Assembly: GCF_001646655.1 (NCBI RefSeq)
Contig: NZ_LPZN01000050.1
Coordinates: forward strand, 1-64,000
Direction: 5' to 3'
From: Rhodococcus gordoniae
Lineage (GTDB): Bacteria; Actinomycetota; Actinomycetes; Mycobacteriales; Mycobacteriaceae
DNA length: 64,000 nucleotides
Below, piece by piece: positions 10,302-31,870 of this stretch (position 1 is the stretch's first letter; the number at the start of each line of letters is the position of its first letter). Both the position numbers and the translations under genes were made by a program. The notes under the pieces are model-generated. The model searched no databases and was not told the origin of the DNA. It saw nothing but the letters and a program-made list of their open reading frames with translations.

Positions 10302-10315
10302 GGACTGCCGGGTTC

Positions 10316-11899
10316 CTAGGCCTGCAGGCCGGGTTGCCCGGACAGGATCGTGAACGACGCCTTCGTCGACACCGGCGCATCCGGTTCGGTGACCGTGTCC
10401 AGCACCCGGAAGTCGGCGTGCACGGCATCCGGGGTGATCGTGGTGCGCACATAGCCGCGGCGATCGTTGTAGAACCTCAGATGCGGATTCGCCTGCATAT
10501 GGCCGATCTGTGTCGCGCCGGTACCGTTGCCGTTCGACGTGATCGACGTGCACACCAGTTCCGAACCCACCACCGGGGCATCGGGGTCGGCGAAGTCGGC
10601 CTTGATGTCGTTGGCCCAGTGCCGGTGCACGTCGCCGGTGAGGACCACGGCGTTGCGTACCGGCGAGTCCACCCAGCCCTGCGTGATCCGGCGCCGCGAG
10701 GCGGCGTATCCGTCCCAGCCGTCCATGCTCACCTCGTCGGTGTCGGGGCTCGGATCCCTGTCCTGTTCGGCGAAGAACACCTGCTGGCCGAGGAAATCCC
10801 ACTGCGCGGTGGAGGTGCGGAAGCCGTCGAGCAACCACTGTTCCTGTTCGGTTCCTGTGAGTGTTCGTGCCTCATCGTGACGTTCTACAGCGTTCTTCTT
10901 CCAGCCGTCGCCGGCGGCCTGGTCGTCGCGGTACTGCCGGGTGTCGAGCATGTGGAAGTTGGCGAGATTCCCCCACCGGACCCGCCGGAAGATCTTCATG
11001 TCGTGTCCCGAGGGCGCCGACGAGGGTCGCAGCGGCATGTTCTCGTAGTAAGCCTGGAAGGCAGCTGCGCGGCGGGCGAGGAAGTTCTCGGTAGTGTCGT
11101 TACCCTCAGCGGCATCGGCATTCTCCGGAACGGGACCGGCCCAATTGTTGTCGACCTCGTGGTCGTCCCACACGACCAGCCAGGGCGCGACTGCATGGGC
11201 CGCCTGCAGATCGACGTCGGCTTTGTACTGCGCGTGACGTTGACGGTAGTTCGCCAGGGTGACGGTCTCGGGCCCGTCGAACGAACGCACGAGACCGGTG
11301 TCGCTCGTGTAGTCACCGCTGATGTACTCGTACTGATAATCCCCGAGGTGCAGAACGAGATCCGGATCGTCCTCCGCCATGCGCCGGTAGGCGGTGAAGT
11401 AACCGTGTTCGTACTGGGCACAACTCGCGAACGCCATCGTGAGGGCGGCCGGGATCTCGGTGGCGGCCGGTGTCGTCAGTGCCCGCCCCACCGCGCTCAT
11501 ATGGTTGCCGGTGCGGAACCGGTAGAAGTACTCCCGCCCGGGGCGCAGCCCGAACAGTTCGACGTGGACGGAGTGGGCGCTGTCGGGGACGGCCTGTTCG
11601 GTGCCGCGTGCGACGACGCGGGTCATCTTCTCGTCTTCCGCGACTTCCCATTGCACCGGAACGTTCCGATTCGGCATTCCACCGAGTCCGTCCTCGGCAA
11701 TCGGGTCGAGGGCGAGCCGCGTCCAGATGACGAATCCGTCCGGCGCGGGGTCGCCGGAGGCGACACCCAGCAAAAAGGGGTCGCCCTTCACTCCCGGTGC
11801 GGAGGCGCGCCCGTATCCGGTGACGCCGATGGAGGTAGCTGCGGTGACGACGGTGATTCCGAGTCCGGCCGTGAGGAACGATCTACGCGACAAAGGCAT
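10316..11899 (-). CDS. phoD: Tat-exported PhoD-type alkaline phosphatase
   Basis: 527 residues from the ATG at 11899, chosen because it begins a twin-arginine signal (MPLSRRSFLTAGLGITVV). PhoD enzymes hydrolyse phosphomono- and diesters using Ca/Fe centres. The N-terminal PhoD domain (FLLGVASGDPAPDGFVIWTRL) is followed by metal-ligand motifs HLGDYQYEY, VVWDDHEVDNNW and VLTGDVHRHWANDI. It acts outside the cytoplasm, presumably in phosphate scavenging. It converges on the Mur ligase gene with only 14 bp between stop codons. No recognisable Pho box was found in the short upstream gap before the VOC gene. Confidence 0.9.
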   Translation of the reverse strand: MPLSRRSFLTAGLGITVVTAATSIGVTGYGRASAPGVKGDPFLLGVASGDPAPDGFVIWTRLALDPIAEDGLGGMPNRNVPVQWEVAEDEKMTRVVARGTEQAVPDSAHSVHVELFGLRPGREYFYRFRTGNHMSAVGRALTTPAATEIPAALTMAFASCAQYEHGYFTAYRRMAEDDPDLVLHLGDYQYEYISGDYTSDTGLVRSFDGPETVTLANYRQRHAQYKADVDLQAAHAVAPWLVVWDDHEVDNNWAGPVPENADAAEGNDTTENFLARRAAAFQAYYENMPLRPSSAPSGHDMKIFRRVRWGNLANFHMLDTRQYRDDQAAGDGWKKNAVERHDEARTLTGTEQEQWLLDGFRTSTAQWDFLGQQVFFAEQDRDPSPDTDEVSMDGWDGYAASRRRITQGWVDSPVRNAVVLTGDVHRHWANDIKADFADPDAPVVGSELVCTSITSNGNGTGATQIGHMQANPHLRFYNDRRGYVRTTITPDAVHADFRVLDTVTEPDAPVSTKASFTILSGQPGLQA

Positions 11900-15484: not shown

Positions 15485-16234
15485 CCGCACAACGTCCTGC
15501 TGCGCACCCGTTCGTGAAACGCCTCGGAGTCGCGAGGAGGCACCACGACTCCGAGGCGAGCGACGTCCGCTCCCCAGGATTCCCTCGCCGTTGAACGAAT
15601 CGAGCTGCGCGACCGACCGATCGGGAGTCGTGGTCTCAGTGTCGATTCGGCAGAATCAAGCTGTCGATGACGGGCGTGTCGCGCACTTCCTACTTCCGTC
15701 GTACTCGGGAATGTACCCGCACGTGTTCGACCCTCGAGGTCCCATCGGCATGTCGGCCTTCGAGGTCGTCCCCAGCAGGTCGTCGTCCGAGGCCGACGTG
15801 GAAACTGGTCGATACCTTCCCGACTGCGTGAACTCTCGCAGACCGCACTGCCGGATGCAGCGCTTCATACTTTCCTCAGGGACGGCTACAGCAAAGCCGG
15901 CGCCGAAGCGCCTGCCGTCCTCCCTCTCCGCAGGGGCGCCACTGCGCCTGTGCCCTCGGCATGGGATGCAGACCACAGATGCTTTCTATCGGGTCGACGG
16001 TCCTCTCAGCACACCCGACATCCGGTAAACGCAGTCGTTCTGATCACCGACGGTGCACCCTGCGCCGGCAGGTCACGCCGCCGCACTCGACTGTCGAGAA
16101 CGAGCTCTACAGCTGCCGTCGACACCGTGCCCGACACCGTTCCTGACTGCCACCCATCACGGCGAACTCATTCCGAAACAGTCAGTGAGTAAACGTTATC
16201 GAGGCCGGATCAGGCTCGGACGGCGTATGCGGTC
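15485..16234. other. 750-bp interval without a recognisable gene
   Basis: Between the enoyl-CoA hydratase (+) and the convergent acyl-CoA dehydrogenase (-). Open frames of up to about 100 codons exist on both strands, but none shows a consistent protein pattern or a family motif. No clear hairpin terminator was found. It is probably decayed sequence. Confidence 0.4.
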
Positions 16235-18439
16235 TTATCGGGGCAATCCGAGTACGCGACGGGCGATCACGTTGAGCTGAATCTCGATGGTACCGCCGCC
16301 GAACAGGACTGCAGGCAGGCCGATGTGGTCGATCATGTGCCCGCCCTCGTCGACGGCTCCGGCCGGGCCGAGTAGCGAGACAAGCGCTCGCGAACCGTCC
16401 CGTTGCGCGATCGCACTGAAAACTTTCTGCACGCTGATCTCCGCGCCGACGTCGAGACCGGACAGACGACCCTGCACACTACGCAAGTTCATTGCCGACA
16501 AAGCCATCTCGCGGGCGGTGTTACGCCCGAGAGTACGCAGCGCCGCGTCGTCTCCTGCAGCGTGCCGGCCGGACTCGACGAGACCGCGTACGCGTGCGGC
16601 GGAGCCGTGCGCGAGTTCGGTCCCCATGTTGAGTCTCTCGTTGGCCAGCGTCGTGGCCGCGAGCCGCCAGCCCTGACCCGGTTCGGCGACGAGGCAGTCG
16701 TCGGGCACGAAGACATCGTCGAAGAACACCTCGTTGAACTCGGCTTTTCCGGTCGCCTGTCGCAGCGGCCGCACATCGAGTCCCTCGCTCTGCATGTCGA
16801 TGAGGAAGTAGGAGATGCCTTCGTGTTTCGGCACATCGGGATTCGTTCGCGCAAGACAGATACCCCAGTCAGCCTGATGCGCAAGCGAATTCCATACCTT
16901 CTGACCTGCGATCACCCAGCCGCCGTCCACCTTGCGGGCGCGGGTGGACAATCCTGCCAGGTCCGAGCCGGCGCCCGGCTCGCTGAACAACTGACACCAG
17001 ACGATCTCGCTCCGGAGCGTGGGAGCAACGAACCGCCGCTGTTGGTCCTCGGTGCCGTGGAGCAACAGTGTCGGCAGGACCCATTCCCCGATCACAGTGG
17101 TGGGTTGTTCGAGTCCGCGGCGCGCGAATTCGTCCGCGATCACGGCCTGTTCGTGCGGCGTGGCTGCCAACCCGTACGGCAGAGGGTAGTGCGGCGCGAC
17201 GAAACCGGCTTCGGCCAATCGGGCTCGGCGTGCACCGCCGCGCGCCGGCGCCCACCCCTCGGTGTACACCGCGTCGTCCGGAAGCGAGAGCACTTCGTCG
17301 AGGACCTCCCCGACGCGCTCTCGCAGTTCCGGAAGGGCGTCCGTACCGACCAGCGAGAAATCGCGAGCGCTGGACATCGCGAGCTCGCCGAGCCGGCGGG
17401 CCCAGACCTCTTCCGGGCCGACGATCGAGGTGATCGACAGCGCTCGCCGCCAGTACAGGTGCGCATCGTGCTCCCAGGTGAAGCCGATACCGCCGAGCAG
17501 AGTGACACACTCCAGAGCGATGTCGACGGCAGCCGGCACAGCCGTCACGGCTGCCTGTGCGGCCGCGAGCCGCTGCTGTTCTCGACCGTGCAGTTCCGAT
17601 CGCGCGGCATCCCATGCAGCGGCAGCAGCGATGTCACGCCGTACCAGCATCATCGCCGCCTTGTGCTGCACGGCTTGGAAGCTCCCCACCGGCCGGCCGA
17701 ACTGGTGCCGGTTGCGGACGTGGTCGACGGCCGTGTCCAGCGCCCACGCTGCGATCCCGGCGGCCTCGGCACCGAGCAAGGTGTTGACGATCAGGTGCAC
17801 ATCGTCCCTCTCGACCGGCGGCAGCAGGTGCTCGGCGGTCACCACCTCGCCGGAGAGTCGCAACCGCCCGATCGATCGAGTGAGGTCCACACCCTCGGCA
17901 ACTTCGATCTCTCCGGCAGTCGAGGGAAGCCGGAACCACACCCACGCGCCATCGGCGGTGGTGGCACACACGATCACCTCGTCGGCGCCCGGCAATCCGA
18001 GCACCGGTTCGGAAAGGCCCGTTACGGTCCATCCCTGCTCGACGGGCGTCGCGACGAGTCCGGGCACGGTGACTGCGGCACCGGTCGCACCGTCGACGAA
18101 CCGGCGCAGGAGATCCGTGACGACCTCGCCCGAAGGGAGTGTGGCGATCAGTGCGCTGGCGATGACGGTAGATACCCACGGACCCGGCGCAAGGGCACGA
18201 CCGAACTGCTCGGCCACGACGGCGAGCTCCGGGAGACCGGCGCCGGCACCGTGATCTTCCTCGGCCAGATGCAAAGCATGCAGGCCTTGCTGGACGCATG
18301 CGTCCCAGATCTCGGGCCGTTTCCCCTCCGCAAGTTCCGCGAATGTCTCACGGGTGCGTGCGATCGGTGCGTGACGGCGGGCCAGGCCGGCAACGGCGTC
18401 GGCAAGGTCACGATGGTCTGCGTCAAGAGCGATGGCCAT
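16235..18439 (-). CDS. fused double-domain acyl-CoA dehydrogenase (FadE34/ChsE3-like)
   Basis: 734 residues from the ATG at 18439, 2 bp after the thiolase stop, so the two genes are translationally coupled. It is about twice the normal acyl-CoA dehydrogenase length and contains two tandem modules: residues 1 to about 340 (ending LLGGIGFTWEHDAHLYWRRAL) and about 370 to 734 (LFSEPGAGSDLAGLSTRARK, GQKVWNSLAHQADWG, final FGGGTIEIQLNVIARRVLG). This layout is that of FadE34/ChsE3, which gives one FAD site per chain and acts on branched steroid side-chain acyl-CoAs. In the block it would introduce the 2,3 double bond before hydration by a MaoC or crotonase enzyme. The exact substrate is not known. 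Confidence 0.88.
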   Translation of the reverse strand: MAIALDADHRDLADAVAGLARRHAPIARTRETFAELAEGKRPEIWDACVQQGLHALHLAEEDHGAGAGLPELAVVAEQFGRALAPGPWVSTVIASALIATLPSGEVVTDLLRRFVDGATGAAVTVPGLVATPVEQGWTVTGLSEPVLGLPGADEVIVCATTADGAWVWFRLPSTAGEIEVAEGVDLTRSIGRLRLSGEVVTAEHLLPPVERDDVHLIVNTLLGAEAAGIAAWALDTAVDHVRNRHQFGRPVGSFQAVQHKAAMMLVRRDIAAAAAWDAARSELHGREQQRLAAAQAAVTAVPAAVDIALECVTLLGGIGFTWEHDAHLYWRRALSITSIVGPEEVWARRLGELAMSSARDFSLVGTDALPELRERVGEVLDEVLSLPDDAVYTEGWAPARGGARRARLAEAGFVAPHYPLPYGLAATPHEQAVIADEFARRGLEQPTTVIGEWVLPTLLLHGTEDQQRRFVAPTLRSEIVWCQLFSEPGAGSDLAGLSTRARKVDGGWVIAGQKVWNSLAHQADWGICLARTNPDVPKHEGISYFLIDMQSEGLDVRPLRQATGKAEFNEVFFDDVFVPDDCLVAEPGQGWRLAATTLANERLNMGTELAHGSAARVRGLVESGRHAAGDDAALRTLGRNTAREMALSAMNLRSVQGRLSGLDVGAEISVQKVFSAIAQRDGSRALVSLLGPAGAVDEGGHMIDHIGLPAVLFGGGTIEIQLNVIARRVLGLPR

Positions 18440-18441
18440 GT

Positions 18442-19578
18442 CTACATCCGTTCCAGAATTACGCACGTGGTGGCTGCGGAGGCACAGATGGCGATCATCG
18501 CGATCTCCTTGTCCCGACGCTCGAGCTCGTCGATTGCCGTGGCCAGCAAACGAATACCCGTTGCGCCTGCTGGATGACCGAGAGCAATGGCACCACCGCC
18601 GACATTGAGCACCTCCGGATCGACCTTGTGGACCTGTGCGAACGACATGGGCACGGCAGCGAATGCTTCGTTGACCTCGAACAGGTCCACGTCGGCGACG
18701 GTCATCCCTGTGCGCTCGAACAGGGTATGCGCCGCGGCAACCGGGCCGTCCAGCATGAACTCGGTATCGCCGCCGATGACACACTGCGCGAGCAATCTGG
18801 CCCGCGGCCTCACGCCGAGGTCACGAGCCTTGTTCTCGGACATCAGCACGGCTGCGCTCGCACCGTCGGACACCTGCGACGACGTGCCGGCGGTGTGGAG
18901 GCCGCCGTCGATCGTGGGGCGCAGCCGGGCAAGCGCCTCCATGCTCGTCTCGCGCAGGCCCTGATCCTGGGTGACTCGCGTACCGAGCCCGTCGCCGGGG
19001 ATTGCGACAGGAATGATCTGCCGATCGAACCAACCGTTGTCCCAGGCGGCGCGAGCGCGTTGCTGCGAACGCAGTCCGAATTGGTCGAGTTCCTCGCGCG
19101 TGAACCCACGGTGTCGCGCGATCCGATCGGCGGCAGTGTACTGATCGGGCATGTCCACCGACCAGGTCTCCGGTCGAGGCGTCCCGGCTCCGGTCCCGAC
19201 CTTGGCGGTCAGCGGTACCCGCGACATCAGTTCGACGCCACACGCCAACCCCACCTCGAGGGTGCCGAGGGCGATCTGACCGGCGACGAGAAGAACCGAC
19301 TGAAGGGCGGTGCTGCACTGGGCGTCGATCGTGGATGCCCCTGTATGTGAGGGTAGACCGGCATGCATCCACGCGGTGCGGGTGATGTTGCCGAACTGCT
19401 CTCCGATCGGAGTGACACATCCGCCGACAGCCTGCTCGACGAGGGAAGGATCCAGATCGAGTCGGTCGAGCACTCCGCGCTGCGCCAGCCCGAGCAATTC
19501 AGCGGCGTGCAGACCGGAGACCCAGCCGTCGCGCTTGCCGAACGAGGTGCGCGCGGCATCGACAATCACGGGTTTCAT
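18442..19578 (-). CDS. thiolase (acetyl-CoA acyltransferase), steroid-type FadA-like
   Basis: 378 residues from the ATG at 19578, preceded by GAGAGAGG. The nucleophilic cysteine lies in TIDAQCSTALQ (Cys88). The NEAFAAVP and GGGAIALGHPAGATG motifs, with the catalytic His, are intact. The C-terminal catalytic-cysteine loop, normally CxGGGxG or the CEAGGQA of steroid thiolases, reads ICASAATTCVILER here. The Cys is kept but the glycines are gone. It would cleave a 3-ketoacyl-CoA, releasing acetyl- or propionyl-CoA. It forms a two-gene operon with the fused acyl-CoA dehydrogenase. Confidence 0.88.
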   Translation of the reverse strand: MKPVIVDAARTSFGKRDGWVSGLHAAELLGLAQRGVLDRLDLDPSLVEQAVGGCVTPIGEQFGNITRTAWMHAGLPSHTGASTIDAQCSTALQSVLLVAGQIALGTLEVGLACGVELMSRVPLTAKVGTGAGTPRPETWSVDMPDQYTAADRIARHRGFTREELDQFGLRSQQRARAAWDNGWFDRQIIPVAIPGDGLGTRVTQDQGLRETSMEALARLRPTIDGGLHTAGTSSQVSDGASAAVLMSENKARDLGVRPRARLLAQCVIGGDTEFMLDGPVAAAHTLFERTGMTVADVDLFEVNEAFAAVPMSFAQVHKVDPEVLNVGGGAIALGHPAGATGIRLLATAIDELERRDKEIAMIAICASAATTCVILERM

Positions 19579-19837
19579 TTGCAGAACCTCTCTCTGTGAA
19601 TCTGCCTGGAGCAGTGCAAAAGACGTGGATGTAGTTCTTCGGTTGCAGGGGCCGGAGCCACCGACCGGACGCTGCCACGCGTGCGCGAAATCGGTCGGAC
19701 CACGTCGGCATCGAGGAGGCAACGCGCTCGATCAGCGACCTGATCCCCTACGCGACCGCTCTTCTACTCGGCTCCGAAGCGCTGTTCTCAGGAACAATTG
19801 TCCTGCAGCAGTTGGCTATTACAAATCGGGGCCGAGA

Positions 19838-21626: not shown

Positions 21627-22547
21627 TCAACGGATTCGAGCCAGAAGGTCGGCTCGCTGTGAGGGTGCGAGACCGGAAATTTGTCCACTTTCTGCGATTC
21701 CGACGGATTCTGCGATACCGCGAGCCTTGGATTTGCCGATCTTCGGTAGCGACTCCAGCACGTACATCACGTTCGTCGTCCCGAGGAGTTCATCCGTGTC
21801 TGCTCTTCGAAATACCTCGCCGAGTGTGAGCCGGCCGGATTTGAGGTCCGCTCTCAGTTCGGACCGGAACTTGCCGGCGACAGCCGGTTCCTCACCGGAT
21901 TCGATACGACGGCCGTTGCCGCGAGAAGGGCGTGACAATACGAAGCCGTCGAAGAAGAGTGTAGTCAGCAGATCGGTAAACGCTTCGGTGGTGTACTCGG
22001 CGCGGCTCGGCCAGTGCATGCTCGCCCACAACGAGTCACGCACGGCTCGGTAGAAGATGTCGGTGGGAACGTCGGACCGGAAGGTGCCGTCGGCGACCCC
22101 GGCGGACAGTGCGCGAAGCCAGTGGTTGCGCATCTCGCGCGAAGCGGTGTCCACTGCCTCGAGCAGTCCGTGCTCACGCAGGTACTGACGGTTCTGCTGA
22201 TAGATGGCTGTCGGATGAGGATGTGTCTCGATCACCTCGAGAGTCTCGTGGATCAACCCCCGCACTGTGTCCCACGGAGTGCGGGCTTCCTCGACCACTC
22301 GGCCGAACCTGCGTTCGATATCGGCCATGTATCGGCTCAGGATCTCCTGAACCAGAGCATCTTTCGAGGGGAAATAGTGGTACAGGCTCCCGGAGAACAC
22401 ACCGGCCCGCTCACCGATCTCGCGGACAGTGGTTCCTCCGACCCCTTTTTCCGCGAAGAGTTCGGCCGCGAAATCCATGATCTGCTCACGCCTGGCCGTC
22501 GCCTTTGCCACCGCGCCTCCTGTGTCACTCGAATCGGCTTTCGACAC
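21627..22547 (-). CDS. KstR2-like TetR regulator fused to an mIHF-like DNA-binding domain
   Basis: 306 residues from the GTG at 22547, about 100 more than a normal TetR protein. Residues 20-65 are the helix-turn-helix (FAEKGVGGTTVREIGERAGV, FSGSLYHYFPSK). The stretch to about residue 205 follows KstR2, the TetR repressor of steroid C/D-ring degradation (AIYQQNRQYL; FYRAVRDSLWASMHW). After a polar linker, residues about 226-306 match the pattern of actinobacterial integration host factor: RSELRADLKSGRLTLGEVF, ADTDELLG, VLESLPKIGKSKARGI and SGLAPSQRADLLARI. The gene is divergent from the MaoC operon; a KstR2-type palindrome lies between them. The fusion is one uninterrupted frame. Operator control of the operon is inference from the site. 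Confidence 0.85.
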   Translation of the reverse strand: MSKADSSDTGGAVAKATARREQIMDFAAELFAEKGVGGTTVREIGERAGVFSGSLYHYFPSKDALVQEILSRYMADIERRFGRVVEEARTPWDTVRGLIHETLEVIETHPHPTAIYQQNRQYLREHGLLEAVDTASREMRNHWLRALSAGVADGTFRSDVPTDIFYRAVRDSLWASMHWPSRAEYTTEAFTDLLTTLFFDGFVLSRPSRGNGRRIESGEEPAVAGKFRSELRADLKSGRLTLGEVFRRADTDELLGTTNVMYVLESLPKIGKSKARGIAESVGIAESGQISGLAPSQRADLLARIR

Positions 22548-22611: not shown

Positions 22612-22625
22612 ATCAAGCGCTTGCT
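22612..22625. promoter_or_regulatory. KstR2-type operator between TetR-mIHF gene and the MaoC operon
   Basis: ATCAAGCGCTTGCT fits the published KstR2 consensus AnCAAGnnCTTGnT at every fixed position. It lies 65 bp before the regulator start on one side and 20 bp before the MaoC start on the other, a suitable place for autoregulation and repression of the operon. The repeat CAAG continues just downstream (CTCAAG). Confidence 0.75.
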
Positions 22626-22644: not shown

Positions 22645-23199
22645 ATGAACACCTTGGACCAGCAATTCGAACAGTTCATCGGACAGCAGGCCGAACCCCC
22701 GCGGGTGGCTCGATACCCCGTCAACGAGGCCATGATCCGCAACTGGGCAGAGGCGCACGACGACGTCAACCCCATCTACGTCGATCGAGAAGCGGCCCGC
22801 GCCACAGGCCGCGACGATGTGATCTGCCCGCCGGCCATGATCTCGACCTGGGTGATGGCCGGGTACCGCCGCTGGCGCGAGGTGCATCGCCTCCGTGCAG
22901 CGAAGATCACCGAGGACTCCGCATATTCGCGACTGCTCGCCCTTCTCGACGAGCACAAGTTCACCTCGGTCGTCGCCACCGACGTTCAGCACGAGTACCA
23001 CCGGGAAACGATTCCCGGCGACCACGTCACCGCGCACTTCACCATCGAGTCGATCTCCCCGGTCAAACGCACGGCACTCGGTGACGGATGCTTCATCACC
23101 CTGCACAAACGCTACGAGAACCAACACGGCGAGTTGCTCGTCGAAGAACGGTTCCGTTTGCTCCGCTTCGATCCCACCGTCGTCAAGGAGACCCGATGA
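22645..23199 (+). CDS. MaoC-like hydratase, N-terminal (non-catalytic type) hot-dog subunit
   Basis: 184 residues from the ATG at 22645. A hot-dog fold of the MaoC N-terminal / FAS1-DH type: VNEAMIRNWAEAHDDVNPIYVDREAARATGRDDVICPPAMIS, then VQHEYHRETIPGDHVTAHFTIESISPVKR. This matches the ChsH2-type half of the split hydratases of steroid side-chain degradation, where a second hot-dog protein (here the MaoC gene at 23603) supplies the active site. It is the first gene of a tightly packed seven-gene operon and ends in an ATGA overlap with the DUF35 gene. Confidence 0.82.
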   Translation: MNTLDQQFEQFIGQQAEPPRVARYPVNEAMIRNWAEAHDDVNPIYVDREAARATGRDDVICPPAMISTWVMAGYRRWREVHRLRAAKITEDSAYSRLLALLDEHKFTSVVATDVQHEYHRETIPGDHVTAHFTIESISPVKRTALGDGCFITLHKRYENQHGELLVEERFRLLRFDPTVVKETR

Positions 23200-23606
23200 C
23201 TGCCGTCCCCCGATTGACCGTCACCCAGGACAACGAGTTCTGGTTCGCCGCGGCGAAGGAGGGACGGCTCGAAATACAACGCTGCGCCGACTGCAAGACG
23301 TTGCGTCACCCCCCAGGACCCGCCTGCCCCGCCTGCCGGTCGTTCTCCTGGGACACCGTCGAATCCGCTCGCCGAGGAACCCTGCACAGCTGGACCGTGA
23401 TCCACCACCCGCAGGATCCGGCCTTCGAGTACCCGCTCGCCGTCGGACTGATCGACCTCGAGGAAGGCACCCGGATCGTCGCCGACATCGCAGGTGTCGA
23501 ACACGATCGGCTCGACATCGGAATGGAGCTCGAAGTCTGCTTCGCCGAACACGCACACGGCGAGATCCTGCCGCAACTGAGACTCCCGAACGGAGGTGCC
23601 GCATGA
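23196..23606 (+). CDS. DUF35/OB-fold zinc-ribbon protein (aldolase partner)
   Basis: 136 residues, the start overlapping the MaoC stop (ATGA). The N terminus holds a rubredoxin-like zinc ribbon, Cys30/Cys33 (RCADC) and Cys44/Cys47 (ACPAC), followed by an OB-fold (GTLHSWTVIHHPQDPAFEYPLAVGLIDLEEGTRIVADI). In the igr pathway the DUF35 domain of ChsH2 is needed by the aldolase Ltp2; here it is a separate protein between the two MaoC halves and directly upstream of the Ltp gene. It probably docks to and activates the Ltp protein and may channel acyl-CoA from hydratase to aldolase. Confidence 0.87.
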   Translation: MTAVPRLTVTQDNEFWFAAAKEGRLEIQRCADCKTLRHPPGPACPACRSFSWDTVESARRGTLHSWTVIHHPQDPAFEYPLAVGLIDLEEGTRIVADIAGVEHDRLDIGMELEVCFAEHAHGEILPQLRLPNGGAA

Positions 23607-24013
23607 GCTTGCCCGAATGTTCGGTAGGCACCATGTTGCCCGACCTCGACCTATCCTTGGACCGGACCACCATCGTGGCCGGAGCAATGGCCTCCCAGGA
23701 TTTCGAAGACGTACACCACGATCCCGGCGCGGCGAACAAGCGCGGAACCCCCGACATCTTCATGAGCATCAATTCGACCAACGGGTTCGTGGACCGCTAC
23801 ATCACCGACTGGGCGGGACCGTCCTCGCGCATCCGGCGGGTCTCCCTGCGGCTCGGCGTCCCGAACTTTCCCGGCGACACCATGCGTATGACCGGCGAAG
23901 TTACCGCAATCGGCGACGACACGATCACGGTCAAGGTGCTCGGCACCAACGATCGCGGTGTCCATGTGACCGCCGAGGTCTTCGTGACGCCGCACGAAGG
24001 AGGAACACGATGA
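23603..24013 (+). CDS. MaoC-like dehydratase, catalytic subunit (ChsH1-like)
   Basis: 136 residues, ATGA overlap with the DUF35 gene. A single hot-dog domain with the catalytic pair of R-hydratases visible as an Asp and His in SQDFEDVHHDPGAANKRGTPDIF. The second half reads RIRRVSLRLGVPNFPGDTMRMTGEVTAI. It most likely pairs with the MaoC protein at 22645 to hydrate an unsaturated side-chain CoA ester, as ChsH1-ChsH2 does. Overlapping stop and start codons imply equal expression of the subunits. Confidence 0.85.
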   Translation: MSLPECSVGTMLPDLDLSLDRTTIVAGAMASQDFEDVHHDPGAANKRGTPDIFMSINSTNGFVDRYITDWAGPSSRIRRVSLRLGVPNFPGDTMRMTGEVTAIGDDTITVKVLGTNDRGVHVTAEVFVTPHEGGTR

Positions 24014-25194
24014 GCATCGGAGGCTTCTCACGCGCAGCCGCCATCGCAGGTATCGGTGCCACCGAATTCTCCAAGAACTCCGGTCGCAGCGAATGGCAAC
24101 TCGCCTGCGAAAGCGTGCTCGCCGCGCTGGACGACGCCCGGATCGGCGTCGAGGAAGTGGACGGCTTCGCCCTCTTCACCATGGAAACCAACCCGGAGAT
24201 CGCCGTCGCGCGTGCACTGGGAATCCCTGAACTGAAGTTCTTCAGCCGTATTCCACACGGCGGCGGTGGCGCCTGCGCCCCGGTGCAGCAGGCCGCGCTC
24301 GCAGTTGCGAGCGGAGTCGCGGACGTCGTCGTGGTGTACCGGGCGTTCAACGAACGTTCCGGACACCGGTTCGGGGCGGGGCCCCCGCCGTTCGCCTACA
24401 ACGCGAACACCGACCAGGAATACCGCAACTGGATCAATCCGTACGGGCTACTCACGCCGGCACAACAGGAGGCGTTCCTCGCGCGCCGCTACATGCAGCA
24501 GTACGGCGTCACTAGTGCCGACTTCGGGCAGATCTCCGTACTGTCCCGCAAGCACGCGGCGAACAATCCGAAGGCGTGGTTCTACGGCCGGCCGATCACC
24601 ATCGAGGACCACCAGAACTCGAAGATGATTGCCGACCCACTGCGCCTGCTCGACTGCTGCCAGGAGAGCGACGGCGGTCAGGCGCTGGTGATCGTGAGCA
24701 CCGAGCGAGCCAGGGATCTGCCCCACCCCCCTGCCGTAATCTCTGCGGCGGCGCAGGGCGTGGGTCCTCAGCAGATCTCGATGAGCAGCTACTACCGCGA
24801 CGACATCGACGTGATGCCCGAGGTCGAACTGGTGGCGAAACAGTTGTGGGCACAGTCCGGTGTCGATCCCGGAGGTATCGACGCTGCAGTGCTGTACGAC
24901 GCCTTCACACCGATGGTGCTGCTCCAGTTGGAGGAGTACGGGTTCTGCGGCCGCGGTGAGGCCAAGGATTTCATCGCGGACGGCAACCTCGAACTCGACG
25001 GCCGCCTGCCGATAAACACCAACGGTGGCCAGCTGGGCGAGGGATATATCCACGGCGTCAACGGCATCGCCGAAGGCGTCCGGTTGATCCGCGGCGCATC
25101 GGTGAACCAGCCTGCGAAGACCCTCGACAACGTGCTGGTTACCGGCGGCTCTCCCGTGCCGCACAGCGCCATTGTGCTTTCCGTCGACCGCTGA
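24010..25194 (+). CDS. lipid-transfer/thiolase-like protein, probable Ltp2-type acyl-CoA aldolase
   Basis: 394 residues, ATGA overlap with MaoC. A thiolase fold without the thiolase nucleophile pattern: AAIAGIGATEFSKNSGRSEWQLACESVLAALDDA, PHGGGGACAPVQQAALAVASGVADVVVVYRA, then VLYDAFTPMVLLQLEEYGFC and LPINTNGGQLGEGYIHGVNG. These conserved Tyr and His segments are those of Ltp2-type enzymes, which cleave a 3-hydroxyacyl-CoA by retro-aldol reaction together with a DUF35 partner. Its position after the DUF35 and MaoC genes supports this. The product would be a ketone or aldehyde and propionyl- or acetyl-CoA. Confidence 0.85.
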   Translation: MSIGGFSRAAAIAGIGATEFSKNSGRSEWQLACESVLAALDDARIGVEEVDGFALFTMETNPEIAVARALGIPELKFFSRIPHGGGGACAPVQQAALAVASGVADVVVVYRAFNERSGHRFGAGPPPFAYNANTDQEYRNWINPYGLLTPAQQEAFLARRYMQQYGVTSADFGQISVLSRKHAANNPKAWFYGRPITIEDHQNSKMIADPLRLLDCCQESDGGQALVIVSTERARDLPHPPAVISAAAQGVGPQQISMSSYYRDDIDVMPEVELVAKQLWAQSGVDPGGIDAAVLYDAFTPMVLLQLEEYGFCGRGEAKDFIADGNLELDGRLPINTNGGQLGEGYIHGVNGIAEGVRLIRGASVNQPAKTLDNVLVTGGSPVPHSAIVLSVDR

Positions 25195-25236
25195 CGCAGC
25201 GGTCGAATACCCCCTATACAGAAAGTGGAATCGAAC

Positions 25237-26442
25237 ATGACTGATCGCATCACCTATGCCCGTGCCACCCATGGCGAAGAAGAGATCCAGGCCGTCGTCG
25301 ACGTTCTGCGCGGCGGCCACCAGGCTCTGCGGATCGGTAAGAACGTTCTCGAGCTCGAACGCCGGGTGCCCGCCATCTCCGGCAAGAAATTCGGCGTGAT
25401 GTGCAACTCCGGTTCCTCGGGCCTGTACCTGGCCATCGAACTTCTCGGCCTGCCGAAGGGCAGCGAGGTGATCACCTCGCCGCTGACGTTCTCCACCGAT
25501 GTTGCGCCGATCGTGCGCGCCGGCCTCATCCCCGCCTTCGTCGACGTGGAGCCGAACACGTTCAACGTCGACGTGAGCAAGATCGAGGCGATGGTCACGA
25601 GCCGCACCAGTGCCATTCTGATCCCCAACCTGGCCGGTAACTGCCCCGACTGGGACGCGATTCGCGCGGTCGCCGACCGGCACGGCCTCAAGGTCATCGA
25701 GGACACCTGCGACACTCTCGGCGCGACCCTGCGAGGCACACCGACCGGAGCCCGCGCAGACCTGAGCGTGACCAGCTTCTCGATGGCTCACATCATCACC
25801 TGTGCGGGTACCGGCGGCATGGTGATGATGGACGACGAGGAAACGCGCGACCGGGCCTTGTTGCTGCGCCGTTGGGGTCGCCGCTCGGAGCCGAATCTCT
25901 TCGGCAACGGTAAGGGTCGCGTCTTCCGCGAGCAGCTCGACGGCGTCGACTACGACAACGATTTCATCTTCGACCTCATGCCGTGGAACTTCGAGCCTTC
26001 CGAGCTCGGTGCTGCCTACGGAGTAGTCCAGCTCGACAAGCTGGCACAGAACTACGAGCGTCGCCGGAAGACCTTCGCGTCCTACACTTCTGCGTACGGA
26101 GCCTTCCCGGAGTTCTTCACGACGCCGGTCGAGCCCGAAGGTCTCGACACCGCGTGGCTGTGCTACCCGGTGATGATCAACGCCGATGCGCCCTTCACAC
26201 GTAGCGATATCCAGGAGTACATCGAAGGACAGGGTATCGACACCCGAACGGTGTGGAGCGGCAACATCACTCGTCATCCGATGATGTCCGGGATCGAGTT
26301 CCGCCAGCCCGAAGACGGGTTGCCCGAAGCTGATGCCGTGTTCGAACGGGGCATGACCCTCGGTATGAGTCACGGACTCACGGACAGCGAAGTGGAGCGA
26401 ATTTTCACGGTCATCAACGACTTCGCTGCTCAATGGCGTTGA
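25237..26442 (+). CDS. RfbH/ColD-like DegT-family PMP enzyme with His in place of the PLP lysine
   Basis: 401 residues from the ATG at 25237. DegT/DnrJ/EryC1/StrS fold type I enzyme: CNSGSSGLYLAIELLGLPKG, LTFSTDVAPIVRAGLIPAFVDVEPNTFNV, the cofactor aspartate in IEDTCDTLG (Asp156). The segment that normally carries the Schiff-base lysine reads TSFSMAHIITCAGTGG, with His185 at the lysine place, as in the 3-dehydrases RfbH/AscC (SFYPAHHIT) and ColD. Such enzymes use PMP to remove a C-3 hydroxyl instead of transaminating. The [2Fe-2S] cysteine group of RfbH, after the conserved RxWGR, is absent (RRWGRRSEPNLFGNG), as in ColD. It sits inside an acyl-CoA operon, not in a sugar cluster. Its reaction there is unknown; deoxygenation or dehydration of a keto-intermediate is a possible role. 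Confidence 0.82.
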   Translation: MTDRITYARATHGEEEIQAVVDVLRGGHQALRIGKNVLELERRVPAISGKKFGVMCNSGSSGLYLAIELLGLPKGSEVITSPLTFSTDVAPIVRAGLIPAFVDVEPNTFNVDVSKIEAMVTSRTSAILIPNLAGNCPDWDAIRAVADRHGLKVIEDTCDTLGATLRGTPTGARADLSVTSFSMAHIITCAGTGGMVMMDDEETRDRALLLRRWGRRSEPNLFGNGKGRVFREQLDGVDYDNDFIFDLMPWNFEPSELGAAYGVVQLDKLAQNYERRRKTFASYTSAYGAFPEFFTTPVEPEGLDTAWLCYPVMINADAPFTRSDIQEYIEGQGIDTRTVWSGNITRHPMMSGIEFRQPEDGLPEADAVFERGMTLGMSHGLTDSEVERIFTVINDFAAQWR

Positions 26443-26468
26443 TCGAGACTCGAATCGCAGGAGGCGAC

Positions 26469-27677
26469 ATGCATCCCGAACTGTCCGAGAAGTCACGGCG
26501 GCTACGTACCGAGCTGCGGGAGTACTTCGCGCGCACCATCGATGAAGAAGACCGACGTGCACTCGTGGACCAGACCGAAGGAGGGCCGGTCTTCGACCGG
26601 ATCTTTCGGCAGATGGGCGCGGACGGCTGGCTCGGGCTCGGCAGGCCCGAGGAGTACGGCGGCAGCGGCGACGATCCCGAGGCGTTGTACGTGTTCTACG
26701 ACGAAGTGATTCGAGCCAATGCCCCCCTGTCGCTGGTCACACTCAACACTGTCGCCCCCGCACTGATGAAGTACGGCACACAGGAACAGAAGGATTTCTT
26801 CATCCCCAAGATCCTGTCCGGCGAGTTGATCTTCGCGATCGGCTACACCGAGCCCGGTGCCGGAACCGATCTTGCTGCGTTGCAGACTCGCGCTCGAATC
26901 GAGGGTGACGAGCTGGTCATCAACGGCAACAAGATCTTCACGAGCGCCGGAGTCTACGCCGACTGGGTGTGGCTCGCGGTAAGGACGGATCCCGACGTGG
27001 CCCGCCACAAGGGCATCTCCGTGGTCCTGGTTCCCACGACCGCACCGGGCTTCTCGGTCACCGAGATTCACACGGTCGGCGGGATCAGCACCTCGGCGAC
27101 CTACTACGAAGACGTGCGGGTGCCACTGACCAACGTGGTCGGCGAACTCAACGGCGGCTGGGGCCTGATCACCGATCAGCTCAACCACGAGCGAGTGGCG
27201 CTCGCTGCGCGTGGCGGTATCGCGAACCAGCTGTACGACGAGGTCCTCGACTGGGCGAAGAAGGAGCCGGCGGGGTCCGGAGCGGTGTACGACCTTCCCT
27301 GGGTTCGTAGCACGCTGGCCGAGGTTTATACATTGCTCGGCGCGGCCGATCTGATAAATCTGCGGCTGGTCGCGGACGTTGCCGCGAACACTCTCGGAGG
27401 CGGTGACTCCGCGGCAGCGAAGGTGTTCGGCACGGAGGCGGTCGTCACCGTATACGGGCGGCTGCAGGAAGTTCTGGGCGCGGTCGGGTTACTACGGCCG
27501 GGAACGCCCGGAGCAGCGATCCAAGGCCGGGTCGAAACGCTCGCGCGCAGAGCACAGAACAACACCTTCGGTGGCGGCACGAACGAGGTGATGCGGGAGA
27601 TCGTGGCGGCCAAGTGCCTGGGCATGACACTCGCCGCTCGGCGTCGTCCTGAGGCCCAGTCCAGCACGAGGAGCTGA
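26469..27677 (+). CDS. acyl-CoA dehydrogenase, first subunit of a probable heteromeric pair
   Basis: 402 residues from the ATG at 26469, which has AGGAGG 4-5 nt upstream; an earlier in-frame ATG at 26433 overlaps the DegT gene. Full acyl-CoA dehydrogenase fold: FAIGYTEPGAGTDLAALQTRARIEGDELVINGNKIFTSAG (FAD and substrate loop), VGELNGGWGLITDQLNHERVALA, and C-terminal NNTFGGGTNEVMREIVAAKCLG. The YEGT-type catalytic glutamate is a glycine here, so the base must be elsewhere or in the partner. Directly followed, 2 bp after its stop, by a second, more degenerate acyl-CoA dehydrogenase, the arrangement of ChsE1-ChsE2 (FadE28-FadE29). Confidence 0.88.
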   Translation: MHPELSEKSRRLRTELREYFARTIDEEDRRALVDQTEGGPVFDRIFRQMGADGWLGLGRPEEYGGSGDDPEALYVFYDEVIRANAPLSLVTLNTVAPALMKYGTQEQKDFFIPKILSGELIFAIGYTEPGAGTDLAALQTRARIEGDELVINGNKIFTSAGVYADWVWLAVRTDPDVARHKGISVVLVPTTAPGFSVTEIHTVGGISTSATYYEDVRVPLTNVVGELNGGWGLITDQLNHERVALAARGGIANQLYDEVLDWAKKEPAGSGAVYDLPWVRSTLAEVYTLLGAADLINLRLVADVAANTLGGGDSAAAKVFGTEAVVTVYGRLQEVLGAVGLLRPGTPGAAIQGRVETLARRAQNNTFGGGTNEVMREIVAAKCLGMTLAARRRPEAQSSTRS

Positions 27678-27679
27678 CA

Positions 27680-28810
27680 ATGGATTTCGAATTCGATGAT
27701 GACCGATCGGCACTCGGCGACCTGGCCGGTCAGATCTTCACTTCGCTCGCCACGGTGGATCGTGTGGTCGAGGTCGAGACCCGAGAGAACGGGTTCGACC
27801 GTGTCTTGTGGCAGGCGCTGGCCGAAGCCGGGTTGCTCGGGGTCGCACTCCCGGAGAAGTCCGGAGGCGCGGGGATGGGGATGCTCGGTCTCGTTTCGCT
27901 GCTCGAACAGCAGGGGCGGCGAGTAGCACCGATACCGTTGTGGTCTGTGGTGGCCGGCGCCGCGCTACCGATTGCCGAGTTCGGCAGCGCCGAACAGATC
28001 GATCGACTACTGCCGGGGTTGCTCGATGGCACCACGCTGCTCACTGGCGCATTCGAGTCCGCGCCCGGCGGACACTCGACCCTCTCGGCGATCCGGAAGG
28101 GGGACACCCTGGTCGTGAACGGGGCGATCACCGCCGTGTCCGGCGGTGCCGTGGCTGCGGGGATCGTTGCTCCTGTGGTCTGCGACGACGGTTCGGTCGT
28201 CGTCGCAGTGCTTCCCACCGATTCGGCCGGCGTGACCGTCGAACCGCTCGCTGTGACCAGCCGCGAAAACGCCGCCGCCGTCCGATTCGGAGATGCCGAA
28301 ATTCCTGCCCACGACCAGCTTTCGGGTGACGGAACCGAAATTGTTGCGTGGGTCCGACGACGCCTCCGGGTCGCACTTGCCGCTTTCCAGTTGGGTGTGT
28401 GTGCAGAGGCGCTCCGCATGACGGCGTCGTACACCTCGGAGCGAGTTCAGTTCGGCCGGCCCCTTTCCACCAATCAGGCTGTCGCTCTGCGTGCCGCCGA
28501 CGCGTACCTCGACACAGAGTCGATCCGCCTTACCACATATCGGGCCGCATGGCTGCTCGATGCCGGTCGTGAGGACGAGGCGGAGGCGGCGTGCCTGACC
28601 GCGAAGTGGTGGGCTTCGCGTGGCGGGTTGCGCGTCGTACACGCCACGCAGCACCTGCACGGCGGAATCGGCGCAGACGTCGACTTCCCCATCCATCGCT
28701 ACTTCCTTTGGGGGCGGCAGGCCGCCTTCACCCTGGGAAGCGCCGATGCGATCGCTGCCGAACTCGGCAGCCAACTCGATTCCGCACCGCCGATCGGGTC
28801 CTCGGCCTGA
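27680..28810 (+). CDS. acyl-CoA dehydrogenase, second subunit of the pair
   Basis: 376 residues, ATG 2 bp after the previous stop with a GAGGAG ribosome site inside the upstream gene's end. It has the acyl-CoA dehydrogenase N domain (LLGVALPEKSGGAGMGMLGLVSLLEQQG) and C domain (SYTSERVQFGRPLSTNQAVALRAADAYLD; ATQHLHGGIGADVDFPIHRYFLW), but the FAD-binding TEPxxGSD loop of the middle domain is replaced by a short ESAPGGHSTL stretch. This is typical of one half of the alpha2beta2 dehydrogenases of steroid side-chain degradation. It is the last gene of the operon; a strong hairpin follows at 28857. Confidence 0.86.
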   Translation: MDFEFDDDRSALGDLAGQIFTSLATVDRVVEVETRENGFDRVLWQALAEAGLLGVALPEKSGGAGMGMLGLVSLLEQQGRRVAPIPLWSVVAGAALPIAEFGSAEQIDRLLPGLLDGTTLLTGAFESAPGGHSTLSAIRKGDTLVVNGAITAVSGGAVAAGIVAPVVCDDGSVVVAVLPTDSAGVTVEPLAVTSRENAAAVRFGDAEIPAHDQLSGDGTEIVAWVRRRLRVALAAFQLGVCAEALRMTASYTSERVQFGRPLSTNQAVALRAADAYLDTESIRLTTYRAAWLLDAGREDEAEAACLTAKWWASRGGLRVVHATQHLHGGIGADVDFPIHRYFLWGRQAAFTLGSADAIAAELGSQLDSAPPIGSSA

Positions 28811-28929: not shown

Positions 28930-29754
28930 TCAGTAAAGATCGTTCGAGGAGCGGTGGACTGTCCGTAACCGACGTTCTGCCGAGGTCGGAAACAGCAGTT
29001 CGGAGGTGCGCCGAGCGGCCGATCTGACCAGCGGGGCCATCCTGCCGAGTTCGACCACGCCGCGGCATGCGAGCGAGATGGCGGCGATCGCGCCGTCCGG
29101 GCCGCGCACCGGTGTTGCTACGGCACTGATGGTCAGCGGGCACTTCTCGCCGGGTACGTGCGACACACCGCGTTGTTGCCGCACCCGATTCAGTTGCGCG
29201 TGCAGAGCCGACAGTCTGTCGGTAGGGAGGGGATGTTCACCCAGGGACATGAGCAGCTCTACCTGCTCGGGCATCAGACAGGCAAGGAGGGCTCGCCCAC
29301 TGACCGTGTCCTGAGCCGGCACCCGTACCGCAACCCGAGACGGAATCCCGTTGCGTGCTACGCCGCCGATCCTGTCCAGGAAATGGACCGACGTGCCTTC
29401 GAGAACAGTCAAGTGCGCGACCCCACCGGTTCTCGATTGCAGCTCGTTGAGAACGTCGTAGGCGGCCGCACGGAGCTCGGAATAATCGCCCACACGCCCA
29501 CTGATCCGCTGCACCCGGACGCCGAGGCGGTAGCCCCGAGATCCGCGCTCGAGCCAGTGCAGATCGACAAGCTGGGTCAAGAGGCGAAATGCGGTGGAGC
29601 GGGGCAGTCCCGTGGCCCGGGTGATGTCTTCGAGCAGCATGTGCTGGGGGCCGTCGGCAAAGGCGTCGAGGATCTGCGTGAGGCGTTCCACCACGCCAGG
29701 GCGAGGCACACGCGCGGGTCCACTCGCCACACCTTGGTCCATCCGAATTGTCAC
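28930..29754 (-). CDS. IclR-family transcriptional regulator
   Basis: 274 residues from the GTG at 29754, which has AGAGGAG 5-6 nt upstream; the ATG at 29742 is the alternative. N-terminal winged helix: VVERLTQILDAFADGPQHMLLEDITRATGLPRSTAFRLLTQL, then GYRLGVRVQRI. The C-terminal effector domain (VAHLTVLEGTSVHFLDRIGG, LLACLMPEQVELLM, VATPVRGPDGAIAAISLACRG) is complete. It is divergent from the CoA-ligase gene, so it probably responds to a pathway acid or CoA ester. The shared upstream region also holds KstR2-type sites, so control by two regulators is likely. Confidence 0.88.
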   Translation of the reverse strand: MTIRMDQGVASGPARVPRPGVVERLTQILDAFADGPQHMLLEDITRATGLPRSTAFRLLTQLVDLHWLERGSRGYRLGVRVQRISGRVGDYSELRAAAYDVLNELQSRTGGVAHLTVLEGTSVHFLDRIGGVARNGIPSRVAVRVPAQDTVSGRALLACLMPEQVELLMSLGEHPLPTDRLSALHAQLNRVRQQRGVSHVPGEKCPLTISAVATPVRGPDGAIAAISLACRGVVELGRMAPLVRSAARRTSELLFPTSAERRLRTVHRSSNDLY

Positions 29755-29775
29755 GACAACTCCTCTCGCGAGTTT

Positions 29776-29793
29776 ACCTAGCACTTGCTTGGT
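29776..29793. promoter_or_regulatory. imperfect KstR2-type half-palindrome upstream of the IclR gene
   Basis: On the plus strand ACCTAGCACTTGCTTGGT. The CTTGnT half is intact while the CAAG half is degenerate (CTAG). It lies about 22 bp before the IclR start. It may be a weak site or the remains of one. Confidence 0.4.
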
Positions 29794-30093
29794 GGGGACG
29801 ATACGCGACTTTTTCGGCGAACGCTCCCGCTGGATGGAACACGCGCCGGCGACCTGGCCCGCGGCGGACGGTGGGGTTACCGGCACTGCGCACGCCTCGC
29901 GTCGGTGTCGACGTACAAGCCTATGCAGCAACGATTTCCGTCCAGAGCTGGCGTTCTACTCCCCCGCCGGGACTCGACCGTCCCCCGGTGGCCGGGGTGA
30001 CGGAACGGCGCCGAATGTCGTACCCCGACAACGGCTCTACAAGACCGCGCGAAGTTGACAGTGGGACGCGCCACATCTACGGTCGGAATATAA

Positions 30094-30107
30094 ACCAAGC
30101 GCTTGCT
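30094..30107. promoter_or_regulatory. KstR2-type operator upstream of the CoA-ligase gene
   Basis: ACCAAGCGCTTGCT fits AnCAAGnnCTTGnT at all fixed positions and shares the string CAAGCGCTTGCTCAA with the site in front of the MaoC operon at 22612. It is 65 bp before the ligase start. The shared string links this gene to the TetR-mIHF regulator. Confidence 0.75.
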
Positions 30108-30172
30108 CAACTGCTCTGCGGTTGGCATTGTGGTGCGCACTTACCGGTCCGAACTCACGAGGGAGACGGTTG

Positions 30173-31870
30173 ATGGAGACGTTCGCCAAGGTGGTCAGAT
30201 CTCGAATCGGGGACGATCACGAGGGTTTGCGATTCGAAGGCTCGACCTGGAGCTGGGACGAAATAGTGCGGGAAGCGGCCGTTCGCGCCTCGCTGTTGCA
30301 CGATTTCGTCCAGCCACGCCCCGGACGCACCCAACGACACGTGGGAGTTCTTCTGCAGAACGTGCCGGACTACGTGTTCTGGCTGCTCGCTGCGGCACTG
30401 AGCGGTGATGTGATCGTCGGCATCAACCCGACCCGACGGGGCACCGAGCTTCGACACGACATCGCCCATGCCGAATGCGATCTCGTGGTCACCGAACCCC
30501 TCCACTTGAACAGCATCGATCCGGATCACCTGGCCGTGCCGGCAGACCGTGTCCTGGACGTGGCCTCCGCGGAGTACGCCGAGTTGTTGAACACTCATTC
30601 CGGTGCCGCTGTCCCCGATCTCCGCCTCGACCCGCAGTCGATCTATCTACTGCTGTTCAGCTCGGGATCGACCGGAGCACCGAAAGCGGTCATCTGCTCA
30701 CAGGGCAGGCTCGGAAGGCTCACGGAGAAGATGTCCGACCGCATCTCGCTGCACCGCAATTCGGTCTCCTACCTGATGCTGCCGCTGTTCCATGGCCACG
30801 CGATCATGATGAACCTGGCCGCCGCCGCGCAGGAGGGTTCGACGGTGGTGATGGTGCGAAAGTTCTCGGCCAGCGCCTTCAGCAAGGATATCCGCGAACA
30901 CAAGGTCACGTATTTCAACTATGTCGGACGCGCACTGAGTTACATCCTGGCCGTACCGGAATCGCCCGACGACAGCGTCAACGATCTGGAGGTCGCCTTC
31001 GGGTCGGAGGCCTCCCCCGCCGAAGTCGATGCGTTCCGCGCCCGATTCGGCTGCGAAGTGCGGGAGGGCTACGGCGCGAGTGAAGGTGCGATCAGGATCG
31101 TGCCGGTTCCCGGTTCGCCACGTAACTCTCTCGGGCTCCCCGCATCCGGAGCAGTCGCAGAGGTACGAAACGACGACAACATCGAATGTCCGCGTGCCCG
31201 CTTCGACGAAAACGGCGCCCTGATCAACGGCGAGGAGGCCACAGGTGAAATCGTGGTCCTCGGAGGGGGCAAGTCGTTCGAAGGGTATTACAACAATCCG
31301 GAAGCGATGGCAGACCGACTCAAGTTCGGTGGCGAAGACTTCTGGACAGGAGACCTTGCGTATCGGGATTCGGACGGATACTTCTACTTCGCAGGCCGGG
31401 ACTCGGACTGGATGCGCGTGGACGGAGAGAACTTCGGTGCCGCCCCACTGGAGCGGATCATGGCGCGGTACCCCGAATTCTCGGGCGCACACGCTTACGC
31501 CGTGCCCGACCCCAAGACGGGCGATCAGGTCATGTGCGTGGTCGTGATGGCCGGAGACGCCACCTTCGACCCCGCCGATTTCGCCACCTTCATCGACGCT
31601 CAACCGGATCTCGGCACCAAATGGCGACCGACCTACATCCGCGTGGTCGACGAGGTTCCGACCACCGGGAGCGGCAAGATTCACAAGGGCCCCTTGCGCG
31701 CCACCGCGTGGGAGGCCGACCGAGTCTGGTACGCCGCCACTCGTACGAGCGAGTACTCGCTGCTCACGGAGGACGACAAGCATCGCATTCGGACTCAATT
31801 CGTCGAGAGTGGCCGCGCAAACAACCTTCCGATCGCTTCTCGCAGGATCCTCGCCGGCATCGGTTCCTGA
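30173..31870 (+). CDS. acyl-CoA ligase (AMP-forming, FadD-type)
   Basis: 565 residues from the ATG at 30173, after GAGGGAG. ANL superfamily: the AMP-binding loop LLLFSSGSTGAPKAVICSQG, the LPLFHGHAI substrate segment, REGYGASEGAIRIVP, the FWTGDLAYRDSDGYFYFAGRDSDWMRVDGEN hinge, and the catalytic lysine in TTGSGKIHKGPL. It would activate the free acid substrate, or a later acid intermediate, to its CoA ester so that the dehydrogenase/hydratase/aldolase operon can shorten the chain. The KstR2-type site upstream and the divergent IclR gene suggest substrate-induced expression. The residues that define substrate length cannot be read with confidence. Confidence 0.88.
   Translation: METFAKVVRSRIGDDHEGLRFEGSTWSWDEIVREAAVRASLLHDFVQPRPGRTQRHVGVLLQNVPDYVFWLLAAALSGDVIVGINPTRRGTELRHDIAHAECDLVVTEPLHLNSIDPDHLAVPADRVLDVASAEYAELLNTHSGAAVPDLRLDPQSIYLLLFSSGSTGAPKAVICSQGRLGRLTEKMSDRISLHRNSVSYLMLPLFHGHAIMMNLAAAAQEGSTVVMVRKFSASAFSKDIREHKVTYFNYVGRALSYILAVPESPDDSVNDLEVAFGSEASPAEVDAFRARFGCEVREGYGASEGAIRIVPVPGSPRNSLGLPASGAVAEVRNDDNIECPRARFDENGALINGEEATGEIVVLGGGKSFEGYYNNPEAMADRLKFGGEDFWTGDLAYRDSDGYFYFAGRDSDWMRVDGENFGAAPLERIMARYPEFSGAHAYAVPDPKTGDQVMCVVVMAGDATFDPADFATFIDAQPDLGTKWRPTYIRVVDEVPTTGSGKIHKGPLRATAWEADRVWYAATRTSEYSLLTEDDKHRIRTQFVESGRANNLPIASRRILAGIGS

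Follow-up and report, generated by a model that had tools for sequence, protein, structure and literature searches.

An in-frame fusion of a KstR2-like TetR regulator and an actinobacterial IHF domain in Rhodococcus gordoniae

A gene of Rhodococcus gordoniae encodes, in one uninterrupted frame, a KstR2-like TetR regulator followed by an actinobacterial integration host factor (IHF) domain. On balance, the product is probably an inherited KstR2-like repressor carrying an in-frame tail of the mIHF2 type, i.e., a folded accessory domain and not a full IHF-like bending module. The fusion looks unique so far, being seen in one genome; both of its families are well known, and their combination in one protein is new. 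Its features are collected in Table 1, together with those of its surroundings in the window (the whole stretch of DNA analysed, 64,000 nucleotides).

Table 1. Coordinates of the fused gene, of the predicted operators and of the neighbouring genes in the window.
Feature	Coordinates	Strand	Basis or remark
Thiolase + double acyl-CoA dehydrogenase block	16230..19580	-	blastn blocks vs. L037, L038, L039, L223
IHF H2TH core, residues 228-306 (IHF 25-103)	21630..21866	-	Pfam, NCBIfam, alignment, models
Former IHF N-terminal helix, residues 204-227, now largely disordered joint	21867..21938	-	gapless register, pLDDT
KstR2-like TetR part, residues 1-203	21939..22547	-	likely start GTG at 22511, codon 13
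Predicted KstR2-type operator ATCAAGCGCTTGCT	22612..22625	.	between fusion gene and divergent operon
MaoC-type dehydratase, first gene of divergent operon	22645..23199	+	Pfam FAS1_DH_region 2.1e-20
ChsH2-like DUF35 protein	23202..23606	+	Pfam OB_ChsH2_C and zf-ChsH2
Thiolase-like protein (frame longer than gene)	23596..25194	+	Pfam Thiolase_C_1 1.1e-26
DegT-type aminotransferase family protein	25225..26442	+	Pfam 6.7e-80
Acyl-CoA dehydrogenase	26433..27677	+	Pfam
Acyl-CoA dehydrogenase	27680..28810	+	Pfam
IclR regulator	28930..29931	-	Pfam
Second predicted KstR2-type operator ACCAAGCGCTTGCT	30094..30107	.	before acyl-CoA ligase gene, 7,482 bp from first
AMP-binding acyl-CoA ligase behind second operator	30122..31870	+	Pfam

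Frame, domains and origin of the fused gene

The frame 21627-22547 on the minus strand consists of 306 open codons. It contains three Pfam domains, i.e., TetR_N at residues 23-69 (E 1e-17), TetR_C_24 at residues 90-181 (E 1.2e-6) and H2TH_5, an S13-like H2TH domain, at residues 235-304 (E 1.1e-16). The NCBIfam profile actino_IHF (NF041260) matches residues 219-305 with 70.1 bits, above its curated cut-off of 60. The nearest PDB sequence is KstR2 (4w97, E 1.4e-34) for residues 15-180 and mIHF (6tob, E 1.8e-12) for residues 206-304. The one-frame fusion proposed by the sequence-only reading is thus borne out by the open codons and by the profile and PDB matches. The true start is probably the GTG at codon 13, because it stands 4 nt after AGGAGG; the protein would then have 294 aa.

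The full-length model (pTM 0.61) has two confident parts, residues 21-200 (pLDDT 86-96) and 231-306 (pLDDT 86-93), and a disordered joint at residues 201-220 (pLDDT 46 and 38). The TetR part has the helix-turn-helix of TetR_N and the fold of the TetR family. The tail is modelled with the mIHF/sIHF fold, in agreement with its profile score; it is not a small free-standing nucleoid protein, since it is fused behind the TetR part without a stop codon.

The alignment of the tail with IHF is gapless over 103 residues: IHF residue k is residue k+203 of the fusion, and codon 204 (TTG) faces IHF Met1. The first 24 tail codons have on average 31.6 of 72 nucleotides identical to 16 paralogue genes (P 0.0003 by nucleotide shuffling and 0.002 by protein shuffling). 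When ungapped offsets against the mIHF2 gene L145 are compared across residues 181-240, the best is exactly 204. Because the register is gapless from IHF Met1 and this offset is the best tried, a whole IHF gene appears to have been joined in frame. The IHF part had been proposed at residues 226-306; its identity as IHF stands, and its extent has to be enlarged to residues 204-306. A frameshift joining two separate genes is ruled out: the first 24 tail codons are homologous to IHF codons 1-24 with neither frame nor register altered, so that the IHF frame continues the TetR frame from codon 1, and no Shine-Dalgarno sequence is seen by eye before codon 204.

The nearest relatives of the tail are the stand-alone mIHF2 proteins (L145-L164), with at most 62% identity over the domain and at most 69% over residues 226-305. 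They occur in genera g10, g22 and some of g24. The stand-alone IHF of the same genome, the only other IHF found there, is 40% identical to the tail. It must be mentioned that Prescottella-type genomes and some other Rhodococcus-like ones carry mIHF2 as a free-standing second IHF paralogue in addition to the core mIHF, and that the N-terminal helix of mIHF2 is near-invariant (13 compared). Elsewhere, four equal-scoring IHF matches lie on both strands within 35 kb (G188:C1:2014647-2049451), which suggests that a segment was multiplied or that the assembly is at fault there.

Against four relatives (L037, L038, L039 and L223), the blastn match of the DNA ends at 21941-21943, i.e., at TetR residue 202-203. 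The thiolase and acyl-CoA dehydrogenase block is inside the operon in these four relatives; here it follows the fusion gene, from which an MFS transporter separates it. Since the similarity ends at the end of the TetR part and the neighbouring block is relocated behind the gene, we infer that the join is a rearrangement breakpoint. A two-gene ancestor, with IHF beside TetR, is absent from the 24 orthologous loci described below and from 17 stretches around IHF paralogues; these stretches (16 of about 16 kb and one of 5 kb) contain no relative of the TetR part at E 1e-8.

No second fusion was found in the collections searched. Among 401 genomes of the family, 22 match the whole protein at 1e-50, its own included, and the other 21 have no tail at the DNA level. 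The genome G081 has one of the two TetR proteins closest to the TetR part of the fusion; the 28 genomes of its genus gave 10 matches, all among those already examined, and no further fusion. Short peptide patterns, which reach close relatives only, gave no fusion in named species among the best 80 of 193 relatives. Of 351 matching plasmid records, none covers 80% of the protein, and the tail alone matches 57 plasmid records. The tail has no match in phages, and peptide patterns gave no viral contig with the tail. Of the IHF matches listed, 20 with a long open frame were chosen, and each is a free-standing gene with its own start. Among the papers listed on IHF, KstR2, paralogues and such fusions, no title or abstract opening names a TetR-IHF fusion. 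The view that no TetR-mIHF fusion had been described therefore holds for the genomes and literature searched.

Among the 80 loci, the IHF part matches one place only, in Arcanobacterium urinimassiliense (L080), where the matching row spans residues 35-297. This candidate was rejected as a fusion: a separate IHF gene (10019-10330) and an unrelated TetR gene (10568-11176) have stops between them. The two genes (L080:10019-11176) are on the same strand, 237 bases apart and in the order opposite to that of the fusion.

The TetR part, its operators and the neighbouring genes

Orthologues of the TetR part come from 21 of the family's 400 other genomes and from records of named organisms, i.e., Nocardia vermiculata, R. 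ruber, R. aetherivorans, Streptosporangium carneum and a Nocardioides. Two of the named ones, R. ruber and R. aetherivorans, are already among the 21; the distinct loci number 24, and all were read. The 24 orthologues are 55-74% identical to the TetR part, their frames end within about 25 residues past the place of residue 203, and reading at the DNA level found no IHF tail in any of them. Of the 66 columns without variation in the other 24, the TetR part of the fusion departs from only one, with D in place of E, and its branch (0.23) is ordinary, i.e., the fifth longest of 25. It is thus very likely, from this conservation, that the repressor function is inherited and intact.

The TetR part is 31% identical to KstR2 4w97 (E 5.2e-35), and the KstR2 orthologues listed in the available part of PMC3068626 are more than 50% identical to that of M. 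tuberculosis; it thus stands outside that orthologue group by identity. KstR3 was considered as the identity of the TetR part; its operon, as described in the available part of PMC10398937, is smaller. The same genome contains another and closer KstR2 (L002, G000:C28:40142-40699; E 8.2e-70 to 4w97).

The KstR2 motif is given as AnCAAGnnCTTGnT in the available part of PMC3068626, and it is found beside the fusion gene at 22612-22625. Both operators proposed by the sequence-only reading, at 22612 and 30094, are confirmed as KstR2-type boxes at the level of sequence. Moreover, the 30094 box has 16 bases, AACCAAGCGCTTGCTC, in common with the KstR2 site of Rv3557c/Rv3558 (Table 3 of PMC3068626, as far as available). 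The palindrome CAAGCGCTTG occurs twice in the 64-kb window vs. 0.02 expected. In the whole draft genome, AnCAAGnnCTTGnT is found at these two places, with 8 matches per strand for a reversed control pattern; the looser RNCAAGNNCTTGNY is found at five places, with 50 for its control. No full KstR2 consensus box lies outside the window in this draft genome; since the genome also holds the closer KstR2, that protein would either use different sites or share the boxes of the fusion.

In 23 of the 24 tail-less orthologues (the exception is L236), CAAGCGCTTG precedes the TetR gene at a distance of at most 400 bp. The 482,050 bases of the 24 loci contain 32 copies, the mean for 29 other palindromes of equal composition being 0.55. 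Two copies are present in 8 of the 24 tail-less loci, 1.6-3.4 kb apart; the use of the operators, pairs included, thus appears independent of the tail.

The divergent operon is one which we take to resemble the sterol side-chain modules (ChsH/ChsE/Ltp), and its thiolase-like protein is presumably Ltp-type. In 23 of the 24 loci, the MaoC and DUF35 genes are neighbours of the TetR gene (about 2-3 kb off in L226 and L228). The DegT gene is near it in 22 of the 24, with 79.6-85.1% identity. A DegT-type aminotransferase gene is an unexpected enzyme within a ChsH2-like, sterol-like breakdown operon. The repressor would act on this ChsH2-type operon from the 22612 box, as in the tail-less orthologues; it would probably control its own gene from the same box, and the ligase gene from the 30094 box. 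KstR2 itself leaves DNA upon binding a C/D-ring CoA thioester.

Evolution and conserved basic residues of the tail

The fixed tree used to follow the evolution of the tail comprised 28 IHFs and the fusion; changes were counted for the N-terminal helix (IHF residues 2-24) and for the core (residues 25-101). The fusion branch has 2.33 changes per site in the helix and 0.40 in the core, vs. 1.38 and 3.95, respectively, for the rest of the IHF tree summed. For the core, the fusion has the longest terminal branch, somewhat ahead of L190 (0.30). Against the mIHF2 gene L145, the differences at the three codon positions are 8:8:32 in the core (IHF 25-80; pN 0.15, pS 0.67) and 13:11:15 in the helix. 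Because both the branch lengths and the codon-position patterns contrast, the core appears to have been constrained, i.e., under purifying selection, while the helix decayed. This holds provided that the helix is homologous to that of IHF, which the register test supports, and the contrast is one between two parts of the single fusion copy. The third-position GC is 0.59 for the core vs. 0.75 for the TetR part and 0.82-0.90 for four stand-alone mIHF2 genes, which could reflect weak constraint.

For the comparison of basic residues, 72 IHF loci were read; nine without a clear start motif were dropped, and the 63 kept represent 49 distinct sequences over the first 101 residues. A position was called conserved basic when Lys or Arg is present in at least 95% of these 49 free-standing IHFs; the core has nine such positions. 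The fusion retains five of them and has lost K54 (T257), K56 (N259), R85 (G288) and R86 (Q289), so that the tail departs here from actinobacterial IHF. Of 15 other conserved core positions it retains 14, the lost one being G91 (A294); the difference in retention is marginal (Fisher p 0.047). All 49 free-standing IHFs have R85 and R86; among them L190 alone has lost one of the nine basic positions, and none has lost more. Among the nine dropped IHFs, inspected by eye, eight keep both arginines. The ninth, L217 (G011:C3:63507-79758), is a divergent IHF paralogue that keeps R85 and has Ser instead of the second conserved arginine. The net charge of the core (+2) is the lowest value seen, the range for free-standing IHFs being 2 to 7 with a median of 5.

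Arginines at the positions of R85 and R86 reportedly mediate DNA binding by mIHF, according to one study, and we take R85, R86 and R88 to be its DNA-binding residues. From the conservation of these residues and this supposed role, we infer that DNA binding by the tail is impaired. It may nevertheless survive, because the fusion still has the PKIGKSKA H2TH loop and five of the nine basic positions. A role of the tail in linking dimers is possible by analogy, because mIHF is reported, in the available part of PMC3724605, as a homodimer that bends DNA.

Explanations considered and comparison with known systems

The sequence of events favoured here would be as follows: (i) a rearrangement behind the gene fused the TetR part in frame to a complete mIHF2 gene; (ii) the IHF N-terminal helix then decayed to a flexible joint; (iii) the H2TH core was kept folded under purifying selection, with a much reduced conserved basic surface. 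Specific DNA binding would be due to the TetR part, and the tail would at most touch DNA weakly and non-specifically or make contact with a protein close to the operator. The sequence-only reading suggested that the tail could be a DNA-bending module that brings the two operators together or silences the catabolic block. Such an active tail, bending or bridging DNA to unite repressors at 22612 and 30094, is judged unlikely: R85, R86, K54, K56 and the N-terminal helix are lost, the second box is present without a tail in the eight loci mentioned above, and the fusion is a singleton. The tail is thus probably not a working DNA-bending device as far as its residues indicate. A weak accessory contact, a role in assembly or a passenger domain would fit better than a full bending role, which the loss of four of the nine most conserved basic residues makes less likely. 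Likewise, we give little credit to a gene-specific chromatin-like repressor, in which the TetR dimer would bring a pair of IHF domains to a selected operator for local bending, bridging or recruitment of nucleoid proteins.

The tail could also be a mere passenger that arose by reading on into an IHF gene, has no role of its own and has stayed folded solely because an unfolded one would damage the repressor; this reading is possible but rather improbable. It agrees with the retention of fold residues and loss of conserved basic ones, with the lower third-position GC of the core, with the single lineage and with the breakpoint at the join. However, the core branch (0.40) is not much above that of the free-standing IHF L190 (0.30), and the tail could have been lost through a stop codon anywhere in some 240 bases. 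An assembly or sequencing error that joins two genes would be in keeping with a draft genome (4.82 Mb, 114 contigs) and with a fusion seen in one genome of a single strain; it is very improbable, since the join is internal to a contig of 236 kb, the tail continues the TetR frame from IHF codon 1 without a shift, and at 40% identity to the only other IHF found in the genome the tail is not a misplaced copy of it.

The fusion amounts to an experiment made by nature, with a nucleoid protein tethered to a specific repressor. Its residue changes, with the fold kept and the N-terminal helix and conserved arginines lost, may help to tell apart the requirements of the IHF fold and those of DNA binding. 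If the tail acts, a general chromosome-packaging protein would here be put to gene-specific use; if it is inert, it would be a clear case of a regulator gaining a harmless domain through rearrangement.

The comparison with known systems leads to the following points: (i) the fusion differs from KstR2 (4w97, 4w1u) by its 31% identity, by its other operon and by the extra C-terminal IHF domain, and its genome holds a KstR2 closer to 4w97 (E 8.2e-70 vs. 5.2e-35); (ii) the tail is like mIHF/sIHF (6tob, 4itq, 6bek; NF041260, PF22525) in its full gapless 103 residues, its fold and its NCBIfam score, but differs by its place behind a repressor, its decayed N-terminal helix and the replacement of R85, R86, K54, K56 and G91; (iii) mIHF2 (L145-L164), to which the tail is closest, consists of free-standing genes of about 103 aa; (iv) Mce3R of M. 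tuberculosis, as described in the available part of PMC11667970, is likewise a TetR regulator of sterol/lipid metabolism enlarged by a second domain, but this second domain is another TetR, whereas that of the fusion is an IHF.
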